Below, piece after piece: positions 27,903 through 51,685 of a stretch of 64,000 bases of DNA (position 1 is the stretch's first letter; every line of letters starts with the position of its first letter). This DNA is from Lentimicrobium saccharophilum. GTDB taxonomy: Bacteria; Bacteroidota; Bacteroidia; Bacteroidales; Lentimicrobiaceae. The DNA lies in the NCBI RefSeq assembly GCF_001192835.1, contig NZ_DF968182.1, positions 1,614,968-1,678,967 of the forward strand. The letters are read 5' to 3'. Under the pieces are notes generated by a model, which ran no database searches, was not told where the DNA came from, and worked only from the letters and a program-made list of their open reading frames with translations. The position numbers and the translations under genes are program-made.

Positions 27903-28424
27903 TTATTCCTGCAGCTTAGGGGATACCCCGATGCTCAGATTGCCTTCACTACCCATTAAAAAGACGGTATACTTTCCATTGTCTGCCGTGATGGAACCTC
28001 CCTTATCACCCATTTTCATGGTTACTGTTTCGAATCCCTTTTTCTTTAGATCGGCATCGTACTTATCAATGAAATCATCCTCAACATTTTCGTAGATAAC
28101 ATTCCACGATTTGGCTCCATCAATGATACTTGTCGTTACAGCTTTTACTTTTCCGTAAGTGAACTCGGGAACTTCGTCAGGTATTTCTCCGGGCCAGGAA
28201 TTGGCTTTCCCGTCAAGCTCAACAGTATTGCCGCCCTGGGTGATCACAGCTTTTTCATCGCCGAGATCCACATCGGCATTGCTGCCTGTTTCGTTTTCAA
28301 TGGCATCTTCCAACAACTCTTCGCTGGTTTTTTTCGATCTATCCTGACAGGAAACGATAAAACTGCAAAAAACAAGGATTGCAGAAAACAACCCGGTTCT
28401 GTTAATTCTTTTTGTTGCTTTCAT
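27903..28424 (-). CDS. Lipoprotein of unknown function
   Basis: 173 residues with a lipoprotein signal (FSAILVFCSFIVSC, lipidated Cys26). A charged linker (SEELLEDAIENETGSNADVD) precedes a compact C-terminal domain of ~100 residues (WPGEIPDEVPEFTYGKVKAV, WNVIYENVEDDFIDKYDADL, GFETVTMKMGDKGGSITADN, YTVFLMGSEGNLSIGVSP). I recall similar domains in small lipoproteins of Bacteroidota and Firmicutes, without known role. It stands alone: 274 bp lie before it (27629-27902 holds nothing recognisable) and 259 bp after it. Confidence 0.75.
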   Translation of the reverse strand: MKATKRINRTGLFSAILVFCSFIVSCQDRSKKTSEELLEDAIENETGSNADVDLGDEKAVITQGGNTVELDGKANSWPGEIPDEVPEFTYGKVKAVTTSIIDGAKSWNVIYENVEDDFIDKYDADLKKKGFETVTMKMGDKGGSITADNGKYTVFLMGSEGNLSIGVSPKLQE

Positions 28425-28633
28425 AACAAAAAAGTTAAGTGGATAATTGGAAAATTAGTGATAAAATAAAAAAAGTCAGCTGTCATAAAAGAGGATTCAT
28501 GAAATCAGACCATCCGCATAACTGATCCAGTGTGTCGGGTAAGGTACCCGGCAATAAAAGCATCACTGAATGATAAAGTTCGAAGCCTGTGACGGATTTT
28601 AGGATTTTCTGTTTCATGGTTAACTTCTTTCTC

Positions 28634-28680
28634 GCCACAAGTTGTGCCAATCCCGATAAATCGGGACATGTTGTGGTTAA
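28634..28680. repeat. Hairpin-forming intergenic repeat (short copy)
   Basis: CCACAA (28635-28640) pairs with TTGTGG (28671-28676), and inside lies the palindrome TCCCGAT-aa-ATCGGGA (28651-28666). The same inner palindrome occurs at 30556-30571 next to a related gene end. It probably folds in the 3' UTR of the 28684-30465 gene and may end or stabilise its transcript. Confidence 0.7.
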
Positions 28681-28683
28681 TTA

Positions 28684-30465
28684 TCATATCTTTATAATCC
28701 TCTTCACAATCGTTTGATTTTCAATCCTTGTCCGAAGGAAATAGATACCGGCCGGCAGGTGGCTGATATTGAGTTCAATTTGTCGGGTGCCGGGTTCCGG
28801 ATTATCGGATTTTACAACCTGCCCGAGAAGATCGGTAACCTTGCAACTTTGAAATTCAACGCCGGATTTCAAACATTGAACTTTGAAACTCCCATGGGTT
28901 GGATTCGGGAACAGCCCGATATCCGGCAGAATCAACGCTTCTGAACCTAAACTCCCGACAGGGGTAAAGTCCACCATGACCAATCCCGTTGAGTCGGAGC
29001 CATCGCGGATATCAAACTGCATGATTTCTGCAGGATCCGTATGATCCCAGACATTAAAGCGGGCAAAAAGTAACGGATACTGTTCGCTGATGGCCTCAAC
29101 ATACAAATCATAATTTCCGTTACCGGTAATTACATTCAGGCCGGGACAGGTATCCAGCCCGCCACCAAGATCAATGGGATTTCTGAGTACCCGGATCCCG
29201 GAACCAGCGTTGTCTTTGATGACATTACCATGAACAGGGCCGGCCAGACCATCCAGGATCATTCCATCTCCTCTGCAGTCTTTAATGATGTTGTGATGAA
29301 CATCCTCAGCGCCCTTGCTATAGAAACCAGTATAAGATTTTTCGATTTCATTGTTGGCAAACTCCACTGTCCCTGCCTTACTGTAATATCCCATGTTCCC
29401 CCCTGTTATCCTGTTCCCGGCTACATACCCCCATCCGGAATAATTGAAAATTCCGCAAGTGCTTTCAGATGGATCAGGGGCAGCTGATTGTACTTCATCA
29501 ATGATGATAGTGTTGTTCATGACATGCATCGGAGCTCCTGCGCTGGTTCTGATCCCTGAAACATTTCCCGTACAGGTAATGGTATTGTTTCTGATAGTGA
29601 CAGACCTGCTTTTTGCAATGATCCCGGCCTTATAATCCTCATCGATAAATGCCGGGGAGTTTTCGTCGGAATTGATGGTATTGTTTTCAATAAATTCATC
29701 TTCAGTGAGATCGTAATTTCCACCGCTTTGATCCACAATTGCACCATTAAATATCCGGTTATTTGAAATGGTGGTTTTATTCGCAGCCGATTTGTCAAAA
29801 ATACCGTATTGGATCTCGTTGTTATCGATCAGATAGGTATATCCGGCTCCGGATTTGATTTGAATATAACCGCAACTGTTACCGGTAACGGCTATTTCCG
29901 AAATACCTGCACCATGCCTGAACTCAATACTACCTTCTGTTCCTGTAGAATTATTTTCGATTATGAATCCATAATTAGCACCTAATAATGAATCAGGGGG
30001 AGGGATTCCAGCTGCACAACCTATCTCAATATACTCTGTTGAGCAGTTGCGTATTATGTTCCTGTCGGTGAAAGGGCCGGTATGGGCTCCCCTGATAAAA
30101 TAAAACTCATCAAACCTGAGCTTTTCAAGACCGGTTGAAAGATTGCTGTCCTCCCGGTCAACCACAATCCCCTGAATGATCGTTTGACCGGCACCTTCAC
30201 CCATCAGACTTACCCCAGCTTTGAGAAACAAGGTATGTGGATTCCCTGACCAGGAATCATCGGGAATGTATGTTCCCTGTTTGATCATCACCTGCCAACC
30301 TGGAGATGCTGCATTGATGCCTTCCTTTATAGTGTTGAACGGATGTTCCTGTGTCCCGTCTTCAATGCCGGTGTTGTTGGAGGCAGCAACGTAGATGGTT
30401 TGCTGACCAAATGAAAAATGGAATACGAAAAACGGAAAAAGTAAAATGGGGATGAGTTTTTTCAT
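28684..30465 (-). CDS. T9SS-secreted right-handed parallel beta-helix protein (copy 1)
   Basis: 593 residues, signal peptide 1 to ~20 (FVFHFSFGQ). The mature start reads QTIYVAASNNTGIEDGTQEHPFNTIKEGINAA, the DUF1565/pectate-lyase-like opening, followed by many short beta-helix coils with NNT/NNxI ladders (IIENNSTG, ISNNRIFNG, TIRNNTITCTGN, DVHHNIIKDCRGDGMI). No polysaccharide-lyase active-site set is clear, so binding and enzymatic roles are both open. The C-terminal ~80 residues are a T9SS sorting domain (IGLFPNPTHGSFKV, KVTDLLGQVV, AGIYFLRTRI, VKRIIKI). It is paralogous to the next upstream gene (30589), sharing opening, coil style and 3' end. Confidence 0.87.
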   Translation of the reverse strand: MKKLIPILLFPFFVFHFSFGQQTIYVAASNNTGIEDGTQEHPFNTIKEGINAASPGWQVMIKQGTYIPDDSWSGNPHTLFLKAGVSLMGEGAGQTIIQGIVVDREDSNLSTGLEKLRFDEFYFIRGAHTGPFTDRNIIRNCSTEYIEIGCAAGIPPPDSLLGANYGFIIENNSTGTEGSIEFRHGAGISEIAVTGNSCGYIQIKSGAGYTYLIDNNEIQYGIFDKSAANKTTISNNRIFNGAIVDQSGGNYDLTEDEFIENNTINSDENSPAFIDEDYKAGIIAKSRSVTIRNNTITCTGNVSGIRTSAGAPMHVMNNTIIIDEVQSAAPDPSESTCGIFNYSGWGYVAGNRITGGNMGYYSKAGTVEFANNEIEKSYTGFYSKGAEDVHHNIIKDCRGDGMILDGLAGPVHGNVIKDNAGSGIRVLRNPIDLGGGLDTCPGLNVITGNGNYDLYVEAISEQYPLLFARFNVWDHTDPAEIMQFDIRDGSDSTGLVMVDFTPVGSLGSEALILPDIGLFPNPTHGSFKVQCLKSGVEFQSCKVTDLLGQVVKSDNPEPGTRQIELNISHLPAGIYFLRTRIENQTIVKRIIKI

Positions 30466-30480
30466 GACTTATTTTTTTTT

Positions 30481-30582
30481 ACCACAACAGGCACATAGGG
30501 CACCCAGATTTCACAATAGAATTATATGTGCCTTCTATGTGCCTTACTGTGCCTATCCCGATAAATCGGGACATATTGTGGT
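30481..30582. repeat. Intergenic inverted repeat (long copy)
   Basis: ACCACAA (30481-30487) pairs with TTGTGGT (30576-30582), AGGCACATAG (30489-30498) pairs with CTATGTGCCT (30535-30544), and TCCCGATAAATCGGGA (30556-30571) is an inner palindrome. TATGTGCCTT occurs twice in tandem (30525-30545). The element fills almost the whole gap between the two beta-helix genes. Related copies lie at 28634-28680 and 32458-32530. Confidence 0.8.
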
Positions 30583-30588
30583 TAATTA

Positions 30589-32442
30589 TTATAACTTTAT
30601 AATCTTCTTCACCATCGTTTGGCTATCAAAGCAAAACCGTACAATATATATCCCGGAAGAGAGATGGCTGATATCCAGTTCTGAAGTTCCGGAATTTCGG
30701 AACTCCGGAACCCGGGCTTCCAGAATCCTGCCAAAGAAATCGACAATCTCCATAACCGCCGGCAGCCGGCTGCCGGTTGAAAACTGAAAACTGAAAACTC
30801 CCCGGGTGGGATTGGGAAACATTATGATCTCCGGCAACGGATGTTCACTTACACCATATGACAATAGCGGCATATACAACACCAGCGCTCTCGCCGGATC
30901 ATCGTTTGCATCATAAATATCATATTGACCGACTTCTGCTTCAGTACTGTGAGACCACACGTTATTCTGTGCCCAGATGGTGTCAACAAAACCGGAAAGA
31001 GTTTCCACGTAAAGGTCATAACCGTCGTTATCTTTGATGACGTTAAATCCTGTACCGGGTTCATCCAATCGCCCCATGGGACAGTTTCCTCTTGTGCGGA
31101 TACCGTGTCCGCCGTTGTACCTGACGATATTGTAATTCAGTCTGATGGAATTTGTATCAGCATATTCAGACTTGTAATCAAGGATCATCCCGTCTCCGAT
31201 ACAGTACTCCACCCTGTTACTATCGACATCTCCCGAAACTGACTGCAGATATAAACCATAATGCGCCCCATCAATCTCATTTTCATTAAATCCATGCGAA
31301 GCGATGGCCGATAAGTATACCCCATAGGCGCCGCCGCTGATCCTGTTGCCTTTCATCCCTCCGAATGATGTCGATCGCACATGGATAGCGCAAACAGATA
31401 ACGTATCTCCATCTAAAGGCAAGCCGGAGGGTTCAAAATACGGGAGGGTGATGGTATTGTCCTCAAAATAGCCACCGGCTGTAGTTTTAAACCGGATGGC
31501 TGCTACCGAGCCATCGGTGTGGATTTCATTTTCTCTGATGACGATATCCCCGGCGGTAGCCTGAAAATGTATACCACCGTTTTTAAAGTTATTATTCCCG
31601 ATAATTGATTCAGACAATGCCACATATTTGGCCGAAGGCGAACCGTTCTGGATATCATTCTCCGTGAACCGCAGGCCGCTGTGTGAGACCGCTCTTAACC
31701 GGATCCCGCCTCCAATCGTGTTACCGGATATCACATCAGGGTATGAGGCTGTCGATAGCACGATCAGGCTGTCGGATACAGTATTGTTTTGGATGAAGAT
31801 GGTATCGGATTTTGCAGTTGTGATTACGCTCAGGCTTCCTGCCACCTGGTTCCCTTCAAGCCTTATTAAGCCCTGGGAAGAGGTGCTGCTGATCCACAGT
31901 CCACCGCCGGTTTCACAATTTATGACCTCCCGCCTTGCCGCACAGGCAGCGCTTCCAATGTGAATGCTATCATCAACGGAGCAGTTCTTTAATAATATTC
32001 GACCGGTTTCGCTAACCGATGGGGTGTGATCATTCAGAACTTGCAATCCGCAGTCTTCAATAATCAAAGGGGTCACCGAATAACCGCTGTCATTGTGTAT
32101 AACGTTCCGGCACCAAAGATTCCTGATGAGCACAGGCATAGAGTCAAGCTTTGAGGATAGTATAAAAATTCCCTGAACCAGGGTAGAAGCAGCAGATGTT
32201 CCGGCGATGGAAACACATTTCTCAACCAGCAATGTGTCTTCAGGATAGTTACCAGAAACTATCGAGATAGAATCACCGTTCTGTGACAACTGCAATCCTT
32301 CAACAATGGTATTAAAGGGATTTGCCTGTGTGCCGTTCTCGTTGCCTGTATTGTTGGAAACATCGACGTAGATGATTTGCTGCGCAAATGAAAAATGAAA
32401 AGCGCAGAACGCTAAATGCAAAATAAGGATGAATCTTTTCAT
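30589..32442 (-). CDS. T9SS-secreted right-handed parallel beta-helix protein (copy 2)
   Basis: 617 residues from the ATG at 32442; an upstream extension would need TTG and spoil the signal peptide. Signal peptide 1 to ~21 (LAFCAFHFSFAQ). Opening QQIIYVDVSNNTGNENGTQ and beta-helix coils (LIRNLWCRNVIH, FIQNNTVSDSLIVLST, IVIRENEIHTDGSVAAIRF, GIRTRGNCPMGRLD) parallel copy 1. C-terminal T9SS domain: EIIMFPNPTRGVFSFQF, MEIVDFFGRILEARV, SGIYIVRFCF, VKKIIKL. Inside this domain the DNA has a perfect 18-bp palindrome, a threefold GAAAACT repeat and a further dyad that encodes VPEFRNSGTSE, suggesting small DNA insertions kept in frame. No clear catalytic residues. Confidence 0.87.
   Translation of the reverse strand: MKRFILILHLAFCAFHFSFAQQIIYVDVSNNTGNENGTQANPFNTIVEGLQLSQNGDSISIVSGNYPEDTLLVEKCVSIAGTSAASTLVQGIFILSSKLDSMPVLIRNLWCRNVIHNDSGYSVTPLIIEDCGLQVLNDHTPSVSETGRILLKNCSVDDSIHIGSAACAARREVINCETGGGLWISSTSSQGLIRLEGNQVAGSLSVITTAKSDTIFIQNNTVSDSLIVLSTASYPDVISGNTIGGGIRLRAVSHSGLRFTENDIQNGSPSAKYVALSESIIGNNNFKNGGIHFQATAGDIVIRENEIHTDGSVAAIRFKTTAGGYFEDNTITLPYFEPSGLPLDGDTLSVCAIHVRSTSFGGMKGNRISGGAYGVYLSAIASHGFNENEIDGAHYGLYLQSVSGDVDSNRVEYCIGDGMILDYKSEYADTNSIRLNYNIVRYNGGHGIRTRGNCPMGRLDEPGTGFNVIKDNDGYDLYVETLSGFVDTIWAQNNVWSHSTEAEVGQYDIYDANDDPARALVLYMPLLSYGVSEHPLPEIIMFPNPTRGVFSFQFSTGSRLPAVMEIVDFFGRILEARVPEFRNSGTSELDISHLSSGIYIVRFCFDSQTMVKKIIKL
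30684..30799. repeat. Palindromes and tandem heptamers inside a sorting-domain coding region
   Basis: GTTCCG-gaattt-CGGAAC (30686-30703) followed by TCCGGA and CCCGGG; a perfect 18-bp palindrome CCGGCAGCCGGCTGCCGG (30759-30776); then three GAAAACT units (30779-30799). All lie within the C-terminal domain of the 30589-32442 gene and keep its frame. Confidence 0.75.
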
Positions 32443-32457
32443 GGCTTGTTTTTTTTC

Positions 32458-32530
32458 ACCACAACAGGCATATAGATTACACAATAAAATTCTATGTGCC
32501 TTCTATGTGTCTACTGTGTCAATGCGGTTA
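32458..32530. repeat. Intergenic repeat (degenerate copy)
   Basis: ACCACAACAGGCATATAG (32458-32475) and CTATGTGCCT (32492-32501) followed by CTATGTGTCT (32503-32512) match the 30481-30582 element with a few changes; the inner TCCCGAT palindrome is lost. It lies between the 32532 and 30589 genes. Confidence 0.7.
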
Positions 32531-32531
32531 A

Positions 32532-33926
32532 TTATCGTAACTTTATAATCTTCTTCACAATCGTTTGATTTTCAATACACAACCGCACGAAAAAGATTCC
32601 TTTCCTTAACCCGGATGCTTCATACATTACCTTGTGTTCGCCGGGTAATTGCACCTCATTTACAAGGATTGCTGCATTCCGACCGGTTATATCATCGATG
32701 ACAAGCTGCACATGCCCTGGTTCTTTCAAATGATACTGAATTGTTGTTGAGCCGGAAAAGGGATTCGGAAAAAGCCTGAGCTGTAGATCATCAGGATCGT
32801 GATCCTCAACCGACAGGGCTGTTTGCCATCTGGCGATGTATTTGGCTGTTTTATTTCCTGCCTTGGTAAACCGGCCACCGGCATAAAGGTTATTTCCGTC
32901 GGCATACAGTGCTTTCACCCATTGATTGGTGCCACTTCCAAGCGACGACCACTGACTGCCATCCCACATGGCGATGTTGTTGACATTCAGCCCTCCTGCC
33001 TGTGTAAAACTTCCGCCGGCAAATAATTTATCACCAATAACTGCAAGTGTATACACCGGCCCGCTTGTTCCACTGCCCAGGGGAGACCATTGCGAGCCAT
33101 CCCATCTGGCTATATTATTGACGCTCACGCTCCCTGCAACAGTAAATCCGCCGGCAACATACAGATCGTTTCCAATCAGGGCAAGGCTGGTCACAACACC
33201 ATCACCGCCACTGACGCCTCCTCCCAAAGCCGACCAGGATGAACCATCCCATTTGGCAATACTGCTAGCATCCACGGTTCCTGCCCTGGAGAATTTGCCC
33301 CCGACATACACATCATTATCATCTGTTTCAATAGCAAACACATCCGGTGTGTAATAATCTGACAGCCATAAGCCACCACCTACAGCATGAAACTGAGTCC
33401 CATCCCACCGGGCTATTCCATAAAGATCTATCCCGGCGGTAGCGATCATTCCCCCTCCCAGATAAAGTGCATCTCCGGCTGAAGCCAGACAGTCAACCTG
33501 GTAATCTATCACACTGCCGGGCTGAACCCATTCAGTACCGTTCCACTTCGCGAAATGCTTCATAGCCTGCCCGTTCGATTTGTAAAAGATGCCACCGGCA
33601 TAAAGCGCTGAATTGAAGAATTCCATGGCAAAAACGGCATTCTGATCAAATCCGTGGCCGATGGGCGACCAGCTTACCCCGTCCCATTGGGCAATGCGGT
33701 TGATATTGTTACCGCCGGCTTTGGTAAATTCACCCCCGGCGTATAAAATGCCGTCTTTTTTCACAAAACAATTGACGTCGGCGTTCATGCCCGAAGTGCC
33801 AAATGATTCATCCCAGTTTTCATCTCCTGAAATCGGGCTTGCCTGATTTTGCGGGCAGACGTTGAGGCAAATGGACATCAAAATAGTCTGCACAACAGCG
33901 ATCATTGCAAATAAATTTGTCTTCAT
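32532..33926 (-). CDS. T9SS-secreted beta-propeller of WDG/GGxFTxAG repeats
   Basis: 464 residues, signal peptide 1 to ~25. Six to seven ~48-residue repeats follow the pattern LYAGGxFTxAGxxxxNxIAxWDGxxWSxLGxG: LYAGGEFTKAGGN, IAQWDGVSWSPIGHG, LYLGGGMIATAGID, VYVGGKFSRAG, IAKWDGSSWSALGGG, LYVAGGFTVAG, IARWDGSQWSPLGSG, LFAGGSFTQAGG and so on. It is a beta-propeller type common in exported Bacteroidota proteins. The last ~80 residues are a T9SS sorting domain (LRLFPNPFSGSTTIQY, LVIDDITGRNAAI, GIFFVRLCI, VKKIIKL). Its start overlaps the stop of the upstream gene by 4 bases (33923-33926), so the two are coupled. Likely a surface binding protein. Confidence 0.86.
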   Translation of the reverse strand: MKTNLFAMIAVVQTILMSICLNVCPQNQASPISGDENWDESFGTSGMNADVNCFVKKDGILYAGGEFTKAGGNNINRIAQWDGVSWSPIGHGFDQNAVFAMEFFNSALYAGGIFYKSNGQAMKHFAKWNGTEWVQPGSVIDYQVDCLASAGDALYLGGGMIATAGIDLYGIARWDGTQFHAVGGGLWLSDYYTPDVFAIETDDNDVYVGGKFSRAGTVDASSIAKWDGSSWSALGGGVSGGDGVVTSLALIGNDLYVAGGFTVAGSVSVNNIARWDGSQWSPLGSGTSGPVYTLAVIGDKLFAGGSFTQAGGLNVNNIAMWDGSQWSSLGSGTNQWVKALYADGNNLYAGGRFTKAGNKTAKYIARWQTALSVEDHDPDDLQLRLFPNPFSGSTTIQYHLKEPGHVQLVIDDITGRNAAILVNEVQLPGEHKVMYEASGLRKGIFFVRLCIENQTIVKKIIKLR

Positions 33927-35395
33927 AGCCTGATGATTTTTTTCACAATTATTTGGTTTTCAGACTCTATTCTAACGAAGTAGATTCCAGGGGGGAAGTG
34001 TGTGATGTCCATCAGAATGCTGGCGGCACCCCGTTCAGATTTGAGTTTTTCCCGGATTTTCCCTGTGGGATCAACGATCTCAACCTGACAATCCGGATAT
34101 AGGATATTGGATAATAAAATCTGAAATTCCCCCTGTGTCGGGTTTGGCATTATTTCAGCACTTATCCGGCCGGGTTCATCAAATCCCTGTGCCTCCTGCT
34201 GCGACCAGGAATAATAATCCCGGGTGCTGAGCACAAACTGCTGCACATGTACGATCCATTTGTGATACGAATCGCTGTGCCGCCGGTTTAATGAATCGAA
34301 TGTGTAAAGGTGCATGTTTACCCCTTTCCAGGATGCTGATCCGGCATCCCATTGCGATAGCGCATCTTCGACAAGCAGGGTATCCTGAATATATTCATAT
34401 GCACGCATATAGCCAGGCTCCCATTCACCAAAGTCATTACCGCTGTATCCGGTGTTTCTCAACATTCTGTTAAACGCATTATAGGTCATTTCAGCTTTTA
34501 TACTCGGCATCCATGTGACTGTATCTTCGCCAATGCGGTAATATTCATACAGGGCCATATTCCCGGCTTCATCCCAGGCCCAATGATCCTTCTCCAGTGG
34601 AATCCACTCTTCGATTGATTCCTCGTATTTCCAATACCACGACTGAATTTTGCTATGGTGTTCATCCCAGGTGGGTTCTTCCTTTACCATATAGTACCAC
34701 AGTTGTGTATTGTGATTATAAAAGAGCCTGGTTTTCAGAATCATATCGCCGGTTGTATTGTACTCATAGTCATACCTTAATTTAGGATAAAAAACTCCTG
34801 TTCCATCTTCCTCTTCCCATTCGGTCACCCGTTCCGGAAGTCCCTCAGGATTATATTCATATAAAATGTATGATGTTGAATCCCAATGCTGTCCCAGGTT
34901 ATTCCATTCGAAATTCACTTCATTCGTCAGCCTTTGCTGATTATCATAGTAATTCAATATTCTTCGATAATTTATCCAGTCGAAAAGGGAAAGACTCCAG
35001 CCATCGAAGTATGATTCGGAAACATTGCCTTGGGCATCAAATACATATCTTTCCCTGAAAAGGCCTTTGTAAGCCATGGTTTCGTTTTCCCAAAACAATA
35101 CTGCCCACATGGTCTGCCGGTCCTGACCATCATACTGCCATTTTTCAATGCGGTATGGCACCCAAAGATTCAGGGCCTGTTCCCTGACGAATTCCTCTTT
35201 CTGTATGGTTCGCTTTTGCTCATCATACCGATAGGTTGTCCGGAAAGAGAGAATTGAATCGCTGATGCCGGAAAATTTCCAGGTGATTACTGAATCGAGC
35301 ACCTCGGTTTGCGGATTCTCCCGCCACATCTGACCCCATATGGAAAAGGGTAACAGAATAAGCACTGCCATCGCAATTGTAATTGAGTTTTTCAT
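33923..35395 (-). CDS. T9SS-secreted protein with YD-like strand repeats
   Basis: 490 residues, signal peptide 1 to ~21 (LLPFSIWGQ). The body is a series of ~30-residue aromatic-rich strands like YRYDEQKRTIQKE, WQYDGQDRQTMW, YVFDAQGNVSESYF, YEYNTTGDMILKTRLFY and WAWDEAGNMALYEYY, resembling the YD/RHS-like repeats that wind into beta-barrels or sheets. There is no toxin-type C-terminal domain. Residues ~415-490 form a T9SS sorting domain (EIMPNPTQGEFQILL, VEIVDPTGKIREKL, GIYFVRIES, VKKIIRL). The gene lies 8 bp after the interrupted propeller gene and is coupled to the next one by ATGA overlap. Confidence 0.85.
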   Translation of the reverse strand: MKNSITIAMAVLILLPFSIWGQMWRENPQTEVLDSVITWKFSGISDSILSFRTTYRYDEQKRTIQKEEFVREQALNLWVPYRIEKWQYDGQDRQTMWAVLFWENETMAYKGLFRERYVFDAQGNVSESYFDGWSLSLFDWINYRRILNYYDNQQRLTNEVNFEWNNLGQHWDSTSYILYEYNPEGLPERVTEWEEEDGTGVFYPKLRYDYEYNTTGDMILKTRLFYNHNTQLWYYMVKEEPTWDEHHSKIQSWYWKYEESIEEWIPLEKDHWAWDEAGNMALYEYYRIGEDTVTWMPSIKAEMTYNAFNRMLRNTGYSGNDFGEWEPGYMRAYEYIQDTLLVEDALSQWDAGSASWKGVNMHLYTFDSLNRRHSDSYHKWIVHVQQFVLSTRDYYSWSQQEAQGFDEPGRISAEIMPNPTQGEFQILLSNILYPDCQVEIVDPTGKIREKLKSERGAASILMDITHFPPGIYFVRIESENQIIVKKIIRL

Positions 35396-35403
35396 GTCCT
35401 GAT

Positions 35404-38145
35404 TTATTTCTGAAGTACAATTTTTCCTGAAAAAAGCTGATTACCGGCAATTACCCTGCAGATATACATTCCGCCGGCGAAAACCTCCGGATTCCATGAA
35501 ATCCGGTTATTCCCTTTCTGACAGAAACCATGGTTTGCCTGATATACCGTTCGCCCCTGCAAATCAGTAACACAAACGGTTACATCTGCTGAGGCATTCA
35601 GTTCAAAATCGAAAACAGCGATGTTGTTTGCCGGATTGGGTGAAATCTGCAAAGGCCGGGGAGTGTCTTTTTCTCCATAGAGCAGAAAGTCATCGATCCC
35701 CAGCGGAGGCAAAGGCAGTTTGGTCAGTTCACCACCTTTTCTATACAGAATAATATTTGCATTCATTCCGCTGCCGCCTGAAATCCGGCCTTCGCCAACA
35801 GCCACATAACCTCCGCCTGCCAGCGGCTGAGCATCGAAAACATAACCCCTGGTCGGCATATATACATTCCCCGGAGACCAGGCAGCGGTATCAGCCGAGA
35901 TGAAGTTTCCATCCGGATCATAAACCGCCACGTAAATCATTTCCTGTGAGCCGAAACCATTGCGGCTGAGGAGGTAATTACCATCGGCATTCCGGGCGAT
36001 GGAGCTGAAACCGCCATTCTGGTTCGTATGCGGCATTTTCTCCCAGAGCAGGGTTCCACCCGCATCCAGTTTGGCCAGGTACTCACTGTTCATGTAGTAT
36101 CCCGCAAGCAGAAATGAACCGTCATCCTGTTCGATGATATCCCCTCCCGTATCCCAGTAATCTGTGAAGTACTCTTTTGTCCATAAAGTATCCCCGTTCT
36201 GGTCGAAACGGATCACATACATATTGGTGATATAGCCAACCGATAGTGCATTCCCTTTGGTTCCGGCAAATATGTATCCACCATCTGCGGTGGTATGTAC
36301 CTCTCCCACCTCATCGCGACGGTTGCCGCCATATCTTCTGGTCCACAGACTGTCGCCCTGCGCGTTGATTTTCATAAACCACAGGTCGCCTGAACCATCG
36401 TATTTCGTTGTTTTACCGGCAATGAAGCAGCCCCCGTCAGTGGCTTCTGTGATGGAGATGCCTTCTTCATCGGTTTCATAACCGTATGTTTTTTCCCATT
36501 CTTTGTTGCCGTTCTGATCAGTTTTAATAAGATAAAGATCTTTGCCACCGTTGCCGGAAGATTTGGTAAATCCGGTCAGCAGAAAGCCCTGATCGGGGCA
36601 TTGTACAAAGTCGAAGGCCCGGTCCTCCTGGTTTCCGCCATAACTTCTGGTCCACAAGGTATCGCCATTGATATCCGTTTTGATAAGCCTCATGTCAAAG
36701 GTGCTGTTGGTGCCTGAGGAGCCCTGATACCCTGCAATGACAATATTTTTATCCGGTGTTTCCATAACGGCATACCCGCAACCGGCAGTTCCGTAACCTT
36801 CGAGGTTGTAATACCCATCAGAATTCCGCGGTGGATCGAGCTTCCATACATAAATGTCGTGCAGACGATTCGCTTTGTAATCATAACCGGTAAGGTAGAG
36901 ATAACCCTCTTCGTCCGCTGTAATGGCATAGGCAACATCCATGTCGATGGCAGGACCGATGTATCGCATCACCCACAGATCGCGGCCGGTTTTATGGTGC
37001 AGGCTGATCATGTTGGCTTCGGCCAGCAATCCGCAACTGTAAGCCGCCACATGTACATTGGTGTCGGGCGTCTGCACTATGGAGAAACCCATGTCGAAGG
37101 TCCCGTAAAGCCCTTCATAGCGGTAAAACCATTCGGCTGTGCCTTGCCGGTTAACCTTCATCACGGCCACGTCAAGATCGGTATCCACCTGAGCATCGCG
37201 GCCGGCAGCACGACCCACGACATAGATGTTATCATCTATTCCGTAAAGCATTTCATAGCAGGTTTCTCCAAATACCGGTTCCGGGCCCGGCCCGTCAATG
37301 TTGCAGTTCCACTGGAATTCACCTGCAGCATTGAGGCAGATGGCGCCGATATCAGAGCCGATCACACAGCTTGCATAGATGCGGCCGTCGTTGCCGAAAA
37401 CAACATCAGTGGCAACACTGTAACCGACATTAAACGCGGGATGAAGGTATTTCCAGTTAAATCCGCCCAGAGCGGTTAAACTTATAATAACCAATTGTTT
37501 TTCATTGGAATTGAGGGAATAACCGGCAGCATATACATTGCCATCGGAACCAACGGTAATCGCGCTGGCCATATCGTCACACAATGAATACGGACAAGCC
37601 CCGTCGAACCAGTATATCCATTCCTGCACGCCGGTGGTTGAGTTGATGGCTGTTACCAGAAAGTCGTAGTTGGCTTCCCCGGCCGCATATACCAACCCAT
37701 TGCCGCCATATTCCACTGAATAAGCTTTACTGGCATAATCCCCGGTGTTATCGTAAATATATTCCCAACGGAAACTGCCTTCGGAAGTAAGGCTGAAAAC
37801 AAGGTACTTATCATTGCCTTCCACATTTTCCTAAAAACCACAGATATACAAGTTTCCATCGGTTCCATAGTGGATCTCCGATACTTCCATCGCCTTATCC
37901 TGCTCTCCTTCATACACATACACCCACTGCCGGGTTCCCGCCTTATCCAATGCAATGACAACAATGTCGTGGTCTAAGTCATTGTACTCCACACCGGCCA
38001 CATAGACAAAACCATCGTCTCCACAGACGATATCATGTCCAATTTCGCTTTTTCCGGTATTGTAGTTAAAATACCATTTATGGTCCTGGCTGTAGGCGAT
38101 GAGGCCAAGCAACAGGATAATCCAGAGGCTGACGACATTTTTCAT
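35404..38145 (-). pseudogene. T9SS beta-propeller gene interrupted by an in-frame TAG
   Basis: One frame runs from the ATG at 38145 (signal peptide MKNVVSLWIILLLGLIAYSQ) to 35404, except for a single TAG (37831-37833) at codon 105. The text around it is continuous propeller sequence, YICGF-stop-ENVEGNDKYLVFSL, in the same frame and in phase with later repeats such as VYAAGYSLNSNEKQLV. Without the TAG the product would have 913 residues: a first half of WxYxxxG...VYVAG repeats, a second half of SBBP-like repeats (GDTLWTRSYGGNQEDRAFD), and a T9SS domain (LQISPNPANNIAVFDF, VTDLQGRTVYQ, GMYICRVI). The downstream part could restart at a GTG (37824), but without a signal peptide. Nonsense mutation, assembly error or rare readthrough are possible. 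Confidence 0.85.
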
Positions 38146-38212
38146 ATTTATCTGTTTTAAGTTTTACCCAGTTCAGTCTGTAAGAGTATTACCCTAAACC
38201 TGAATAAAAGGA

Positions 38213-38791
38213 TTATACCCTGATGATTTTTCTTACCATTACCTTATCGCCCGAAATGGCCCTGATAAAATAGATGCCCGGAGATAAATGACTTCCATCA
38301 AATAAAATCCGGGCAGAACCGGAACCTTTGTTTCCGGAAACAGGCACGGAAATCACCCTGCCTGTATTGTCGCGTATCTCTATCGTCAGAAAGGATTCGT
38401 TGGTGAGCTCACAATAAACTGACAACTCATTGTGAAAAGGATTCGGGGCCGGAATTACGGCAATCTGTCCTGTGAGTTCTTTTTCTCTGGAAACACCGGT
38501 ATACCCCCCGTTGGAAGTGTGCACTGTTCCGGCAACAATGTTTCTATAATTCAACCCATACAAAAATTCGGCTAAGGGTATGAAAGGCATTTCCCGGCTC
38601 TTGAACTGGTCTTCCGTCCTGACAATGGTTCCACAGGCCCCGACTGCCACAAAGGCTTGTGCGTCAAGAGCCTGCCCGGCCCATAGACCATTCCCCTGTG
38701 GAAGTGGATTCTGCCATTGCCAGGGATTATGTGCCCTGGCATTGAATATCAATAAAATAGTTACAAAGGAAGATACGATTGCTTTTTTCAT
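38213..38791 (-). CDS. Short T9SS protein with remnant of a Ycf48-like propeller
   Basis: 192 residues from the ATG at 38791, signal peptide ending near FNARA. The mature start WQWQNPLPQGNGLWAGQALD, then FVAVGACGTIVRTED, is the opening of Ycf48-like T9SS propellers that normally have ~300 more residues. Here it passes after ~25 unrelated residues to what looks like the last blade (VAGTVHTSNGGYTGVS), then to a T9SS sorting domain (IPAPNPFHNELSVYC, IEIRDNTGRVIS, GIYFIRAI, VRKIIRV). Most of the propeller seems deleted, leaving a mini-protein that could still be secreted. The frame is intact. Confidence 0.78.
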   Translation of the reverse strand: MKKAIVSSFVTILLIFNARAHNPWQWQNPLPQGNGLWAGQALDAQAFVAVGACGTIVRTEDQFKSREMPFIPLAEFLYGLNYRNIVAGTVHTSNGGYTGVSREKELTGQIAVIPAPNPFHNELSVYCELTNESFLTIEIRDNTGRVISVPVSGNKGSGSARILFDGSHLSPGIYFIRAISGDKVMVRKIIRV

Positions 38792-38914
38792 TTCGACAGC
38801 ATTAATAATCAAAAACACTTTTTACATCCGAAAAACCAATTTGCATTTTCAGACGGAAGTTCTCAAATCAACTATAAAATTTTATTCTCCATCCATTTCA
38901 GGCTCAGCTATATT

Positions 38915-41404
38915 TCACATTTTCAACATTTTCCAGGCTGATGTACAATCATCAAACCACCCTTTCAGAAAATAAATTCCTGATGGCAGTTTTGAAGCAT
39001 CGTAATTAAATCTGTGTTCACCTGAAGACCGGTCACAATCCATCAGGGTGCACATCTCTTTGCCGGTAAAGTCATAAAGTTTCAGCACAACATGGGCTTT
39101 TTCAGGCTGATGCCAGCTGATGGTGGTACCCTGTGTAAAAGGATTAGGATAGTTCCGAAACATAAGGGAGTTTCCCTGTTCATTCAAAACACCCGGATCC
39201 TTTACTCCAACCGTTGAATTTTCGTTATACCCGATCAGGTATATGGTTCCCAGGCTTCCGGTTTCAGTGCAATGGATATTGAGCTGAGCGGTAAAAACAC
39301 TGCCGGCAGGCACGAACTGCACTGAAACTTCCCAGGATTCACCGGGGGGCACGGTTTGAATTCCTCCTCCCGATATCATTGAAAATGATTCAGCTCCGGC
39401 TCCGGTGATGTCAGCGCCCTCAAACTGCCAGTTCGTTGTTCCATTATTCATGCAACTTACCTGGTGAACATCGTCGTTCAGGTAAAAAAGCTGATAATTG
39501 GCATAATTGGTAAATGTTCCCCTGTTGATGATATCCCCCTGCACATAAAGAGCAAAAGATTCATTCTGAGTTGGTTCATTCCTGATTAAGCCATTATTCT
39601 CAATATTTCCGAAGTTGTAAAGACTATATGTATAAGAGCCGCCGCCGTATACCTGTGACTGAAGCGTATCGGTAACCAATAAATTGCCATAAAACCTGTT
39701 TCCATCATCAATTACCACTATTCCACGGATTTCTGTATTTCCGGATGCGGTAATATTGCTTAGGGTGGCATTTTTGATGATGGCGGAGTTTACCCTGCCA
39801 TTGTAAAGATGCCCGGAAATATCGATTTCATAATGGTTCATCTCCAGGGTTGATCGCAACAGATTGCAATTACCTGCAATTTTAAGATCGCTGGTGGCAA
39901 CGACCATACTGACGGAATCAACATCCGTGAAATTTGTCTGGAAAACTTTCCCGGGCAGTTGGTGAATCTGCTGTTGCTGACTACCGGAAAATTTGGTATA
40001 AGCATTCTCCCAAAGTCCATGATTGTCAATGCCTCCGGTAATTTCAAGAGACAGCAGGTCACCATCGTTTATGTTGCGGATTAATCCGTAATTCGTGATA
40101 TCTCCCCGAACCTGAAGCGTATAAGTAATGCTTCCTCCGCCATATTCGATGGATTGAAGGGTGTCGTTAACAATTACATAGTCGTGGAAAATATTATTGT
40201 TTTCGATGGTGACAACTCCATTAACTGATAATCCTCCCATACTTATAATGTTGTTCAGGAAACCATTGTTCAGATTGGTATTTTCAATGGCTCCGCCGTA
40301 AAGCCACCCGTAAATTGTAAGTGTATCCCCTGCCATGTTCAGATGTGCCCCATTCAGATTAAGATCATTCATTATCGTGATATTGCTTTGCGCAACAATA
40401 TCACTTTCAGGGTTAAGGTCGCTGAAGTAACTGTCGAAAAACCTGTCGGTACCCTGAGTAATATGCTGTGTTTCATCACCTGCTAACTTTACATATTTGC
40501 ACGACCAGTGCCTGTTGTTTATAATATCACCGGTAATAAGGATTTCAAGATCATCATCATTCAATGGTGCTTTTGTATCCATATTATCCATAATCACCCC
40601 ATTATTTAACAGATTTCCATTAATCCTTAGTTTATAGATGCCATACCCACCTCCATAAACATTGGCCATCAGGGTATCCGTTACTGTAATGTTTCCATTG
40701 AATTTCAGGGTATCCGAAACATCATACCCAACCTTAAATGTTCCAAGAATTTCGAAATCACCCGTAAGGGTCCCGCTGTTAACCAGGCAATGACGCATTT
40801 CAAGGGAGTGATTGCCAACACTGAATATATGGCCGTTGAGCATAAGATGGCTCCGGTTATAATAGCCGTCAGAGTACCAGTCACAGGTAAAAACCAGGTC
40901 GGTGAGGGCGGTGATGCCGGTACTGCTATTGACGATAATTTTACTCCCGAATGTCATTCCTTCAAGCAGGCTCAGGTTATGATTTCCTGAATTTGTCAGC
41001 TCCGTTTCAACAGGCATCCAGATGTTATTATTGGTAAGATCACCATAAACAAACATCTTCAGAGCATCCTCTCCGCCGTTCTCAACGATACCATTATTGA
41101 CAGCGCTTCCATGTACATAAACCGGGAAAATTCCATTCCCCCCCCCATACCCTCCATTGCGGAGCGAACCTGACGAAGTGATTGTAAGATTGTTGCAGTG
41201 AACAGGCAGAATGGCATAACCACTTGTATAAGCCTGAACTACAGGCCCGTTGATGATTACATCATCGTTTTCACCGGGAACAGTCAGACCAATCCAGGTG
41301 TTGGGATCGTGCCATAAACCGCCAAATGTTGTTGACTGAACCTGAGAATAAACACTTACTGACACGACAGAAAGAATGAATGCGAAAAGTAGATTTTTTT
41401 TCAT
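38915..41404 (-). CDS. Large T9SS-secreted repeat protein, paralogue of the 22043-25849 protein
   Basis: 829 residues, signal peptide 1 to ~20 (SVSVYSQ). The mature N-terminus GLWHDPNTWIGLTVPGENDDVIINGPVV matches the VWSVPSTWLGGIVPAASDDVII opening of the 1268-residue protein. Beta-rich repeats follow (YGDLTNNNIWMP, KLRINGNLLNNGVIMDN, YTLQVRGDITNYGLIRN, YSLYNFGNIENNGLIRN) with SDLKIAGN/LNLNGAHLNMAGDTL steps. A domain near 640-725 (DITGAGAESFSMISGGG, VSVQFVPAGSVFTAQLNI) is followed by a T9SS sorting domain (FRNYPNPFTQGTTISW, LKLYDFTGKEMCTLM, GIYFLKGWF, WKMLKM). Probably a surface-layer or adhesive fibre; inference from repeats. Confidence 0.86.
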   Translation of the reverse strand: MKKNLLFAFILSVVSVSVYSQVQSTTFGGLWHDPNTWIGLTVPGENDDVIINGPVVQAYTSGYAILPVHCNNLTITSSGSLRNGGYGGGNGIFPVYVHGSAVNNGIVENGGEDALKMFVYGDLTNNNIWMPVETELTNSGNHNLSLLEGMTFGSKIIVNSSTGITALTDLVFTCDWYSDGYYNRSHLMLNGHIFSVGNHSLEMRHCLVNSGTLTGDFEILGTFKVGYDVSDTLKFNGNITVTDTLMANVYGGGYGIYKLRINGNLLNNGVIMDNMDTKAPLNDDDLEILITGDIINNRHWSCKYVKLAGDETQHITQGTDRFFDSYFSDLNPESDIVAQSNITIMNDLNLNGAHLNMAGDTLTIYGWLYGGAIENTNLNNGFLNNIISMGGLSVNGVVTIENNNIFHDYVIVNDTLQSIEYGGGSITYTLQVRGDITNYGLIRNINDGDLLSLEITGGIDNHGLWENAYTKFSGSQQQQIHQLPGKVFQTNFTDVDSVSMVVATSDLKIAGNCNLLRSTLEMNHYEIDISGHLYNGRVNSAIIKNATLSNITASGNTEIRGIVVIDDGNRFYGNLLVTDTLQSQVYGGGSYTYSLYNFGNIENNGLIRNEPTQNESFALYVQGDIINRGTFTNYANYQLFYLNDDVHQVSCMNNGTTNWQFEGADITGAGAESFSMISGGGIQTVPPGESWEVSVQFVPAGSVFTAQLNIHCTETGSLGTIYLIGYNENSTVGVKDPGVLNEQGNSLMFRNYPNPFTQGTTISWHQPEKAHVVLKLYDFTGKEMCTLMDCDRSSGEHRFNYDASKLPSGIYFLKGWFDDCTSAWKMLKM

Positions 41405-41485
41405 GTTACGGTTTTTGAAATTTTAGCTTAAATGATCTTTTTCCGGGTTATAAAGAAAGTTTTAATGACTGCGAGAAACCAAATT

Positions 41486-42598
41486 CTACCTCTTCCTGAC
41501 CTCCGAACGTTTAAAACCTTTCACCCTTAATTCTGCATCATCATTGGGATTGTAATTATTGTTGTCGTGGTATATCACATCACCCTGAGCATTCTCCCAG
41601 CGGAAATTCCATTCATTGGTTCCGCGTTCAGTTTCTCCGGTAAACGGGTTGATGTAGTCTTCCTGACCGGTAAGGTTGAGGTACATGTCGTTGTTGATTT
41701 CTGAATTGGTCAGGGCACGGTGTTCGGTGATCTCCCGGTCAATGCGGGCAATGTCGCGCTGGGTTTGCAGGGCGATGTTGCTGTTCACCTGCTGGCTGCG
41801 GATTTCACGGGTAATCCATTCGGGATTGAGCTTTACCGACTGGCCGATGGTGGCAAACACAGGTGCCAGCTCTTCGAAAAGCGGTTTTTCGGCCCTTACA
41901 TACCAGGTTTCCTTATTGCTCCACAAACCACCGCCCAGCTGACCCCAGTCCTCGATGGCACATACCATCTTTTCAAGATATGGAATACCGTTTTCGGAGT
42001 ACTCAAGATTCGCGATGGCTGCCTGGTAATTGAACCGGTAACCACCAAGCATAAGCGATGACATTTTCCCATACTCTTCAGCCAGATTGGGGAGCTGTTG
42101 AACACCTGTAACCTTAATGTTCTGAGCATGAGGATGGGCAAACGGAATGGCAATTTCCCTGATAAAATCGACAGGTGTCATCATACGCATTACCATCATC
42201 CCGTTGTAGTTGCTGCCATCCGGGAACATGGGAGCAGCCAGGCTCTTCTCCGGATAGCGGTGTATATCGAAAAAGCGGGTGTCGGGCAGCCACCCCATGC
42301 CGGCTTTCTGATCGGGCGACGAGAGCTTCATATACAGCTTGGCTTCAATGGCATTGCCGGCGCCGCCCGCGGCATTGGGATCAACCCGCGTTATCCCGCC
42401 TGTAATACTCCAATCTTTCGGCAGCAGAAACGTAAAGGCATTTTCGTTGGGTTCGCTGTTGCGATAAAAAATTACCGGATGACCTTCTCCACCGCTTATA
42501 AGCTCCCCTCCATCTTTTTTGTCCGGGTTAAAACCTGAATTGCAGGCAATGAGGGCAAGCAAAGCAGGAATAACTGCTGGTAATGGCATGAGTTTCAT
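41486..42598 (-). CDS. Bacteroidota lipoprotein of unknown function
   Basis: 370 residues with a lipobox (PALLALIAC, lipidated Cys19). The mature protein has no family I can name. It is a mixed alpha/beta domain with AFTFLLPKDWSITGGITRVD, GWLPDTRFFDIH, MMVMRMMTPVDFI, a helical region (ITREIRSQQVNSNIALQTQRDIARID) and a C-terminal small strand domain (EDYINPFTGETERGTNEWNF, VIYHDNNNYNPNDDAELRV). The layout resembles lipoproteins that respond to envelope or host-gut stimuli in related bacteria, but this is only an impression. A minus-strand TAAATTTG box (42668-42661) lies ~60 nt upstream. Confidence 0.72.
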   Translation of the reverse strand: MKLMPLPAVIPALLALIACNSGFNPDKKDGGELISGGEGHPVIFYRNSEPNENAFTFLLPKDWSITGGITRVDPNAAGGAGNAIEAKLYMKLSSPDQKAGMGWLPDTRFFDIHRYPEKSLAAPMFPDGSNYNGMMVMRMMTPVDFIREIAIPFAHPHAQNIKVTGVQQLPNLAEEYGKMSSLMLGGYRFNYQAAIANLEYSENGIPYLEKMVCAIEDWGQLGGGLWSNKETWYVRAEKPLFEELAPVFATIGQSVKLNPEWITREIRSQQVNSNIALQTQRDIARIDREITEHRALTNSEINNDMYLNLTGQEDYINPFTGETERGTNEWNFRWENAQGDVIYHDNNNYNPNDDAELRVKGFKRSEVRKR

Positions 42599-42660
42599 AA
42601 TTGAGAATGTTGTTCCGGGGGGCCGTTGCTATTGAGTCTACGATGTGGACGTAGTCATTA

Positions 42661-42668
42661 CAAATTTA
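42661..42668 (-). promoter_or_regulatory. Candidate -7 box (TAAATTTG) for the 41486-42598 lipoprotein gene
   Basis: The minus strand reads TAAATTTG (plus CAAATTTA), matching TAnnTTTG, 63 nt before the ATG at 42598. Confidence 0.4.
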
Positions 42669-42804
42669 CAACGCGTTTTGCAATATACTCATTAATAGCA
42701 CCTTACAATATCCTTCAGAGCACCCTACAAAAACACTCAAAACAGTAGAAGTGGCAGAAGCAACTTGAGGCAAGGATTTTCGATTCTCAGTTCTGAATCA
42801 TAGC

Positions 42805-42984
42805 GGTCTCAACTCCGCAACATGGCATGATGGCCTTGACTCCGCAACATGGAAAGGTGGTCTCGTGCCGATGGCCATCGGTACCCCTCGACCACCACAG
42901 AAAATCCCGGCTAAATAATAAAACCGGTGTTCAGGCGAAGCCCGGTGGTCGAGCGGAGTCCGGTGGTCGAGCGGAGCCGAGACC
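42805..42984. repeat. Dispersed-type palindromic repeat cluster
   Basis: An 18-bp unit CCGGTGGTCGAGCGGAGT occurs twice in tandem (42942-42959, 42960-42977; one change) and runs into cgagacc. GGTCTCAACTCCGC (42805-42818) is the inverted form of GCGGAGCCGAGACC (42971-42984) with two mismatches, and CCTCGACCACCAC (42886-42898) is inverted to the GGTGGTCGAG units. ACTCCGCAACATGG occurs twice (42812-42825, 42839-42852). The set fills the gap between the lipoprotein and the TPR regulator and looks like a REP/palindromic element family seen in Bacteroidota. A 62-codon minus frame through it is an artefact of the repeats. The rest of the gap (42669-42800) holds nothing recognised. Confidence 0.75.
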
Positions 42985-43019
42985 ATCCGGAAACACCTGA
43001 GAGCAACTCATGTAAAAGA

Positions 43020-45020
43020 TCAGATCAAAGCGATAAAGTTGGTAAGGTTCTGTTCATGAGGCACGCCAAGTTTTTTGCGGATACGGGTGCGGGCGACTTC
43101 GATACTCTTGATGGACTGGCCGGTGAGAGAAGACACCTCCCGGGTATTCATATCGAGGCGGATAAAAGAGCAAAGGCGACGTTCTGCCGGGGTAAGATCA
43201 GGGTAATTCCTGATCAGCCTGGCCTGAAAACCCGGATGAACTTCATTGAACTGGACTTCAAACTCTTTCCATGCATTGGGGGCCAGTTCCTGCTTCAATT
43301 GAACCTGAAGATGCTGAACAGATGCTTCTGACACATCCGTTTTTTTCAGCTCATCCAGTTCTCCGATCAGCTTCTCCAAAAGTTGGTTTTTTTGATTAAT
43401 AAAAATAGTTTTTGCAGTCAGTTCACGCTCTTTGGCAGAAAGATCTTCGCTTAACCGGCCTATTTCTTCACTTTGCCGTCGGATTACCCCGGTTTCACGT
43501 TTTGCTTCATTTTTCCGTTTATAGATCAGCCAAATCAACGCAATACCCAATAAAAGACTTATTCCCAGCAGTAACAAAATGATGTTTTTCGTGCGGATTG
43601 CCTGTTTTTGAAGGAGGCTGTTCTGACTCAACGCCTCGTTCTCCTTTTTCAGTTCGCTCCGTGCGAAACCGGCTTCAATTTCCTCAATAGTCCTGTATTT
43701 TTCTGCCGTATAGATGCTGTCCTTCAAAGCGGCGGCACTTTTCAGGCAAGTATATGCCTTATCGGAATTACCGGCTTTTTCATAGCAGGCTGCCAGGCAG
43801 AGGCTGGCATCCAGTCTTCCTTTGAGCGAACCGGTCGCCGCAGCAATTTTCATTGCTTTGTCAGCCATTTCAATTGCTTCCCTAACAGAATTGAGGTTTA
43901 TCAATGTATAGGACAGTTCGGTCAGAGCTTCGGCCAGTTCGGGCATTGCGCCTATCTCTTCAAAGAGATTCACTGATTTGCGGAAAAATGCCGAAGCAAT
44001 TATAAAATCATTCTTTACTATATGCAATTTGCCAAAAAGCATGTTACACGAACCCAAAAACGATTTATCACCCGATTTTTCCGCCAGCCTAAGGGCATCC
44101 TCGAGAAAAAGACCGGCGTTTTCATAATCCTTAAGTTCGGTGTAGGCCCCTGCCATATTTTTATACCTGATTATCAAACGGTACTCATCATTGAGATTTT
44201 GTGCCATTTTCAGCGATTGGCTGTAATATTCCAGTGCCCTGAACGGGTTGTGGTTGTCGCTGTATAGGTTACCAATATTGTTTAAACAATCAGAAACCGC
44301 TGCTACATCATTTATTTTACGAAAAACCTCAATGGCTTTTTCATAAGATTCCATGGCTTTGGCAAAATCGCCGGTTTTGCGGTGCACATTCCCCAGGTTG
44401 TTGTGGCAGATGGCTTCTTCGTAAGTCATTCCCGTATTCCGTGCTTTCAGCAACGCTTTATTATATAACTCAACAGCATCTTTATAATTCCCGCGCAACT
44501 TCTGAACAATCCCCATACCTGCCAGGCACCAGAACTGACCTGAATCATCATTCAACTTCTCATATCCCGAAAGGGAAAGACGGTAATACTCCATGGAATT
44601 GCCGAACTGGCTTTGCTCCAGGTAAACCTCTGCAATATAGAAATAGCATTCAGCAACAAGCAACTTATCCCCGCTTGCTTCAGCTTCCCGCAAGGCCAAC
44701 CTGAAAAGCTCCATGGAAACAGCATATTCAAGACGGTTGTAATGTACAAGACCCAGCCCAAGCCTGGCTTTGATCAGTTTTCGTTTTACCGCCTTTACCA
44801 ATGCCTTGCTGCCGCCTCCGCTGAGACATTTTTCGGCAGCTTGAATGGCTGTGTTATAGAGTTGAATAGCTTCATCATCCCGGGCATCTCCTGCTTTAGC
44901 CAGAACAGAAGAAATCAGTGCAGTATCATACGGCATTTCAACACCTTGCGACTGTACACCAGCGGGAAAAAGCCAGGACAGACAAAACAGAAGCCGGCTG
45001 ATTATTCTTAAACGGCTCAT
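43020..45020 (-). CDS. TPR-containing membrane regulator with LuxR-like HTH
   Basis: 666 residues, signal peptide 1 to ~25 (FPAGVQSQ). Seven to eight TPR units (~60-450) are typical: AVELYNKALLKARNTGMTYE, EAICHNNLGNVHRKTGDFAKAMESY, DCLNNIGNLYSDNHNPFRAL. One TM helix (~479-500, IILLLLGISLLLGIALIWL) separates them from a cytoplasmic coiled coil (~505-570) and a C-terminal LuxR/GerE-like HTH (~605-666: LTPAERRLCSFIRLDMNTRE, SSLTGQSIKSIEVARTRIRKKLGV). This matches the one-component sensor/regulators of Bacteroidota whose periplasmic TPR part senses a signal. No histidine kinase motifs are present. Targets unknown; the exoprotein island downstream is a candidate by position only. Confidence 0.85.
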   Translation of the reverse strand: MSRLRIISRLLFCLSWLFPAGVQSQGVEMPYDTALISSVLAKAGDARDDEAIQLYNTAIQAAEKCLSGGGSKALVKAVKRKLIKARLGLGLVHYNRLEYAVSMELFRLALREAEASGDKLLVAECYFYIAEVYLEQSQFGNSMEYYRLSLSGYEKLNDDSGQFWCLAGMGIVQKLRGNYKDAVELYNKALLKARNTGMTYEEAICHNNLGNVHRKTGDFAKAMESYEKAIEVFRKINDVAAVSDCLNNIGNLYSDNHNPFRALEYYSQSLKMAQNLNDEYRLIIRYKNMAGAYTELKDYENAGLFLEDALRLAEKSGDKSFLGSCNMLFGKLHIVKNDFIIASAFFRKSVNLFEEIGAMPELAEALTELSYTLINLNSVREAIEMADKAMKIAAATGSLKGRLDASLCLAACYEKAGNSDKAYTCLKSAAALKDSIYTAEKYRTIEEIEAGFARSELKKENEALSQNSLLQKQAIRTKNIILLLLGISLLLGIALIWLIYKRKNEAKRETGVIRRQSEEIGRLSEDLSAKERELTAKTIFINQKNQLLEKLIGELDELKKTDVSEASVQHLQVQLKQELAPNAWKEFEVQFNEVHPGFQARLIRNYPDLTPAERRLCSFIRLDMNTREVSSLTGQSIKSIEVARTRIRKKLGVPHEQNLTNFIALI

Positions 45021-45307
45021 AAGGTTTTACGAAATCCGAAATAAAGATAATGAGTTTTCTATAACTTGTCAACTTACATGATGATCGATTTCATACATAC
45101 CCTGCTACCCCGGTTTCTGTTAGGGCCTCTAACCCGGGCGCAGGCAGGCCCCAGGCGCGAATTCCACTCAACGTTACATTATGATTGACATCAGAACGAA
45201 CCTTGACAAATTCACGATTCAGCGTCCCGCCTTCTATTTCCTTGAATAATTGTAAAAATATAACAGACTGCCGGCTTCATTATCCAAAGACAGTATTTAA
45301 TCAGGTA

Positions 45308-45520
45308 CTAAAGATTTGTTTCAGAACGCTTCCCCGCATTCGATTTGCCATAGATTTTTGAAACATACTTACCTGCATAATACGCCAGTATCAGCGGCAG
45401 CCATAAATGACGGATAAAAAAACTGCAATTATCCAATTGTTTGTCGGTATTCAACAGTAAAATATAAATTCCGAAGGATAGCAGGATAAATGCCATATCC
45501 AGCATGCGAGATATTTTCAT
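45308..45520 (-). CDS. Small membrane protein
   Basis: 70 residues with two hydrophobic helices (~8-24 DMAFILLSFGIYILLLN and ~36-52 FIRHLWLPLILAYYAG) joined by a short polar loop, and a basic C-terminus (KYVSKIYGKSNAGKR). It lies 36 bp downstream of the alanine-dehydrogenase-like gene on the same strand, so it may be the last gene of that unit. I do not recognise a family. The following 287 bp (45021-45307) hold nothing recognisable. Confidence 0.55.
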   Translation of the reverse strand: MKISRMLDMAFILLSFGIYILLLNTDKQLDNCSFFIRHLWLPLILAYYAGKYVSKIYGKSNAGKRSETNL

Positions 45521-45556
45521 TGAATTTCTATTGTAAATCAGAATAAAAATCAGATT

Positions 45557-46783: not shown

Positions 46784-46902
46784 TTTTACCACCGTCTGAA
46801 TTTCATGCTAAGATACAAAAAACAAAAACAACTTAACAAACCCCATGCATGTGCTCCGCAATCCATCAGCACCCACAGGGATTGCTGCAGATGCACTATT
46901 AT

Positions 46903-47355
46903 TTAACTGGTAAAAATAAAGGCCCTGTCTTCACTTCCTTCATCCACAGCAATTTCAACCTTAACGGCCCCGGCCGGAATTAGCATCCCCGCGAGTTCGG
47001 GCCATTCGATAAAGCAGTAATCCCCGCTGAAAAAGTAATCCTCATATCCAATGTCGAGTAATTCCTCAGGTTTCCGCAACCGATAAAGGTCAAAATGAAA
47101 AACAGGCTTTCCGCTGCCGGTACGATACTCATTAACAATTGAGAATGTCGGACTGCTTACGTTGTCTATTACTCCTAATTGCCGGCATACAGCCTGTATA
47201 AAGGTTGTCTTTCCGGCTCCCATGGGACCTGTAACGGCAAATACCTTTTCAACCGGAAAAATGGTCAGCATTTGCTCCGCAATTTGATCAAGTTCGTGCA
47301 CACTGCCGCAACGCAACTGAAGTGCCGGCGTTTTTTCTGAATAAATCATCTGCAT
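46903..47355 (-). CDS. tsaE: tRNA threonylcarbamoyladenosine biosynthesis ATPase TsaE
   Basis: 150 residues, the usual size. It has Walker A GPMGAGKTT (residues 43-51), SSPTFSIVNEYRT (switch-like motif), FHFDLYRLRKPEEL and FIEWPE (Walker B-like). TsaE is the ATPase of the TsaB-TsaD-TsaE complex that makes t6A37 on ANN-decoding tRNAs. The start MQMIYS at 47355 is chosen; MIYS two codons later is possible. A minus-strand TATTTTTG box lies 17 bases upstream, giving a very short leader. It lies between porX and the alanine-dehydrogenase-like gene, an order I recall as common in Bacteroidota. Confidence 0.92.
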   Translation of the reverse strand: MQMIYSEKTPALQLRCGSVHELDQIAEQMLTIFPVEKVFAVTGPMGAGKTTFIQAVCRQLGVIDNVSSPTFSIVNEYRTGSGKPVFHFDLYRLRKPEELLDIGYEDYFFSGDYCFIEWPELAGMLIPAGAVKVEIAVDEGSEDRAFIFTS

Positions 47356-47371
47356 CCCGGATATAAAAATG

Positions 47372-47379
47372 CAAAAATA
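47372..47379 (-). promoter_or_regulatory. Candidate -7 box (TATTTTTG) for tsaE
   Basis: The plus strand reads CAAAAATA, a minus TATTTTTG that fits TAnnTTTG, 17 bases before the tsaE ATG at 47355. It suggests tsaE can be transcribed independently of porX. Confidence 0.4.
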
Positions 47380-47455
47380 AGAAGAACTGCCTCAAGCCGG
47401 GCTGATTAAAGCCGTGGAAGCACACTCTTTTTTATCAAAGCACCGGTTTACCTCC

Positions 47456-49009: not shown

Positions 49010-49060
49010 ACTAAATCAAGTGAAGGAGTTCGTTTATGCCTGAAGGGGAAATAAATTCCG

Positions 49061-49160: not shown

Positions 49161-49169
49161 GGCCAAAAC

Positions 49170-51677: not shown

Positions 51678-51685
51678 CCAGCCCT

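Follow-up and report, generated by a model that had tools for sequence, protein, structure and literature searches.

Young bacterial nonsense pseudogenes carry one derived, strain-private stop in a frame that is otherwise intact and that has intact orthologues. A gene of Lentimicrobium saccharophilum strain TBC1 is alike in each of these respects, and no notable difference from such pseudogenes was found. The same gene resembles the in-frame stops of suspected readthrough described by Belinky et al. (2021, PMC7918605) in having an in-frame TAG flanked on either side by sequence with a dN/dS far less than 1. However, that set was limited to stops common to orthologues of at least two species, whereas the TAG of TBC1 is present in no relative. 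In its architecture the gene is like the Bacteroidota type IX secretion system (T9SS) type A cargos (TIGR04183/PF18962) with propeller repeats (SBBP, delta-60), with a signal-peptide-like N-terminus, repeats, and a C-terminal sorting domain. It differs from them in that the TBC1 copy is interrupted and that the propeller-family matches in its post-stop part are weak, each covering one repeat only.

Strain TBC1, a member of the Bacteroidales, was isolated from methanogenic sludge and sequenced on the Illumina MiSeq platform at approximately 50x, with 3,402 protein genes published (PMC4599096). The genome consists of 4,514,407 bp in two contigs, in which 150 or more T9SS type A sorting domains were counted after scoring of the first 150 candidates. 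The window analyzed here, 64,000 nucleotides in length, spans positions 1,614,968 to 1,678,967 of the 3.11-Mb contig. The interrupted gene in this window belongs to this set of at least 150 cargos and codes for a predicted T9SS-secreted beta-propeller protein; very probably, it has recently become a pseudogene through a nonsense mutation specific to strain TBC1.

The minus strand from 38145 to 35404 is translated as a single frame of 913 codons ahead of the terminal stop, with one internal TAG at codon 105 that leaves 104 residues on its 5′ side and 808 on its 3′ side; beyond this TAG, neither a further stop nor a frameshift occurs ahead of the TAA. The earlier note had read the gene from the ATG at 38145 through about one and a half blades to the TAG, and translation and the structural model of an orthologue agree with this. 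Its claim that the frame resumes past the TAG without a frameshift and runs to a T9SS sorting domain likewise agrees with the translation and with the matches to TIGR04183 (36.5 bits; cutoff, 23) and PF18962 (28.8 bits; cutoff, 27), both of which are over the curated cutoffs. The signal peptide that it proposed is visible as a signal-peptide-like N-terminus, an assignment made by eye and accompanied by an N-terminal helix predicted in the orthologue of UBA5833; in TBC1 the frame from this N-terminus to the sorting domain is interrupted by the TAG. For the post-stop part, ORF finders would report a GTG-started ORF at 35404 to 37824. The coordinates of the features are listed in Table 1.

Table 1. 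Features of the interrupted gene and its surroundings (window coordinates)
Feature	Position	Strand	Evidence
5′ part (104 aa) with a signal-peptide-like N-terminus followed by roughly one and a half blades	37834..38145	-	Translation, orthologue alignment, orthologue model
Premature TAG, codon 105 (Ser, Ser, and Ala in orthologues)	37831..37833	-	Translation, orthologue alignment
Rest of the propeller with the sorting domain, ending with TAA	35404..37830	-	Translation, Pfam/NCBIfam matches
T9SS type A C-terminal sorting domain (Por_Secre_tail)	35404..35650	-	PF18962, TIGR04183
201-aa remnant of a Ycf48/BNR-repeat T9SS protein	38213..38818	-	Comparison with UBA5833 (703 aa)
Mosaic block holding both damaged genes, up to 28% difference per 200 bp	35200..41700		TBC1 versus UBA5833

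The model of the UBA5833 orthologue (mean pLDDT, 66) is all-beta and made of repeated four-stranded units, and the position of the stop corresponds to the second strand (residues 99 to 106) of the second unit, or blade. A Foldseek search of the PDB with this model returned many beta-propeller proteins among the top matches, with low TM-scores, which are expected because the model is only moderate. The gene, which is single-copy in the TBC1 genome, is predicted to encode a large secreted beta-propeller protein in which a putative Sec signal peptide precedes tandem blades and the C-terminus carries a T9SS type A signal.

Searches of the genomes of the genus Lentimicrobium and of a collection of genome contigs retrieved four orthologues. 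Three are full length, from UBA5833 (95% identity), ACE_NR_BACT3 (66%), and Go_SlDig_bin_433 (67%), and the fourth, from RS341, comprises only the C-terminal 251 residues and is too short to show codon 105. The same frame is intact in the three full-length orthologues, which indicates that the long open frame of TBC1 did not arise by chance. Comparison of this codon in close relatives had been proposed as a check, and all three full-length orthologues carry sense codons at the aligned position (Ser, Ser, and Ala, respectively). The TAG therefore appears, as far as seen in these sequences, to be derived and private to TBC1. A stop shared with relatives, a sign of functional readthrough or of an old pseudogene, was found in none of the three.

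The gene immediately upstream is also damaged. It differs between TBC1 and UBA5833 by 1,506 bp in frame, with the junction at 38523/38524, so that the frame is still open; the propeller is gone, and the N-terminus and sorting domain are kept in the TBC1 remnant. Since the version of this protein in UBA5833 is a whole repeat protein, we interpret the difference between the two genomes as sequence deleted from TBC1. A survey of 93 UBA5833 ORFs against TBC1 over the shared region of about 140 kb identified an internal stop in TBC1 only in the gene studied here and a large deletion only in this upstream neighbor. Most other early stops in TBC1 ORFs occurred at residues 1 to 16, which suggests that the starts of these ORFs had been called too far upstream. 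An apparent second in-frame stop, in a reading frame from 38915-41404 continuing to 38213, was also rejected, since the 829-aa gene has a normal end and a sorting domain of its own, and the stretch 3′ of it is what remains of another gene. The occurrence of two adjacent damaged genes among 93 suggests that this part of the cluster may have become less necessary.

Both damaged genes lie in a mosaic region; neither the damage to the upstream gene nor this mosaic figures in the earlier note. TBC1 and UBA5833 diverge by about 5 to 20% across most of the approximately 140 kb, and this divergence is broken by sharp-edged tracts of 98 to 100% identity at approximately 28400-35200, 36000-37250, and approximately 41800-55900 in window coordinates and, past the window end, at approximately 74000-89000. 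The block that holds the two genes has flanks that are about 99.9% identical and contains the second of these tracts. The broken gene itself is a patchwork relative to UBA5833, with codons ~62 to 275 divergent, ~276 to 788 identical, and the rest divergent again, and TAG codon 105 sits in a divergent stretch. The identical tracts likely reflect recent homologous exchange between two Lentimicrobium species, with the caveat that a chimeric metagenome assembly of UBA5833 could also be the source of such a pattern.

The segment from 36.0 to 37.25 kb shows zero differences between TBC1 and UBA5833, was probably exchanged recently, and is of no use for dating the mutation. The dN/dS between the two genomes was similar in the two parts of the gene, at 0.14 ahead of the stop and 0.16 in post-stop alignment columns 117 to 330. 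Among the changes assigned to the TBC1 branch in columns 117 to 290, 8 were nonsynonymous and 14 were synonymous (neutral P = 4e-5), a polarization that is rough because the outgroups are only about 65% identical. Assuming a constraint of about 0.15 while the gene was functional, an unconstrained share larger than roughly a quarter of the TBC1 branch is disfavored. The frame has decayed little, with no other stop or frameshift and with constraint on the branch still visible. These results indicate that the post-stop region is under purifying selection on the TBC1 branch. Either the mutation at codon 105 would be recent or the protein would still be made; the sequence by itself fits both, and a recent mutation is the ordinary expectation. 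Because the post-stop stretch retains the mark of purifying selection, the loss would be recent.

A general reassignment of TAG in TBC1, for which this one codon alone would speak, has a negligible probability and was ruled out. RF1 is present in the genome, over the curated cutoff, and none of the 43 tRNA genes found has the CUA anticodon that would read UAG, although the list lacks Ala-TGC, probably located in an rRNA-operon gap, and may be slightly incomplete. In addition, TAG is the terminal stop of 8 of the 39 predicted genes in the window, with only a short open extension past each, and the survey of 93 genes contains this single internal stop. The view of the earlier note that TAG is an ordinary stop here and general recoding unlikely is thus borne out. 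Low-level suppression, by which leaky or regulatory readthrough of the TAG would yield some full-length protein, is a more specific alternative. A read-through gene would also show an intact frame and purifying selection ahead of the TAG and past it, as seen here, and many such bacterial in-frame stops have been argued to be tolerated (PMC7918605). However, an intact frame is equally well explained by recent age, the stop is absent from the full-length orthologues, no UAG-reading tRNA is among the 43, and no notable stimulatory RNA structure was found 3′ of the TAG (fold z = -0.8), so readthrough is considered unlikely. It would be rather a long shot that the TAG acts as a strain-specific leaky stop throttling secretion of the propeller exoprotein without a dedicated suppressor tRNA.

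An error in the consensus of the deposited assembly, with a sense codon as the true TBC1 codon, must also be weighed, since the outcome hangs on one base. Substitution errors are rare at an Illumina depth of about 50x, and such an error at codon 105 is quite unlikely because the genome is that of a clonal isolate sequenced with Illumina at this depth. A mixed consensus from a collapsed repeat is ruled out by the single-copy status of the gene, and the adjacent 1,506-bp deletion argues that the locus is truly different. Of the three possibilities that the earlier note had left side by side, a recent real mutation is therefore favored by the sense codons of the relatives, RF1, the lack of a UAG-reading tRNA among the 43 found, the selection pattern, and the 50x isolate genome; sequencing error is unlikely, and gene-specific readthrough is unlikely and has no positive support.

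As a recent nonsense pseudogene, the gene was very probably inactivated as follows. A single base substitution in TBC1 changed codon 105 to TAG, translation would stop there, the resulting 104-aa product would lack the T9SS signal, and protein function would be lost. In the intact protein, the T9SS type A C-terminal signal would serve to anchor the protein to the cell surface or to release it there. The loss of one cargo was probably tolerated and is plausible because at least 150 sorting-domain matches occur in the genome. The undecayed rest of the frame would mark the mutation as young, and the neighbor, likewise a damaged T9SS gene, lies in the same apparently recombined stretch. Taken alone, this is another young pseudogene. 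It provides a clean case in which a mutation is told apart from recoding by comparing relatives, and it points to a T9SS gene cluster in which recombination between two Lentimicrobium species has apparently shuffled the sequence and in which one of the two species has two adjacent cargo genes damaged.

A separate observation concerns the tRNA genes. A second tRNA-Leu(UAA)-like gene (L086:85-172, minus strand; G000:C2:1091184-1091271), located 2.6 kb from the normal copy, has an extra A that gives an 8-nt anticodon loop (ARAGORN 'taaa'). It could be a tRNA of the +1-frameshift-suppressor type or a dead copy. UBA5833 has the same 8-nt-loop form (L108:785-872, 97% identical), and the other copies examined in the genus have a normal loop.
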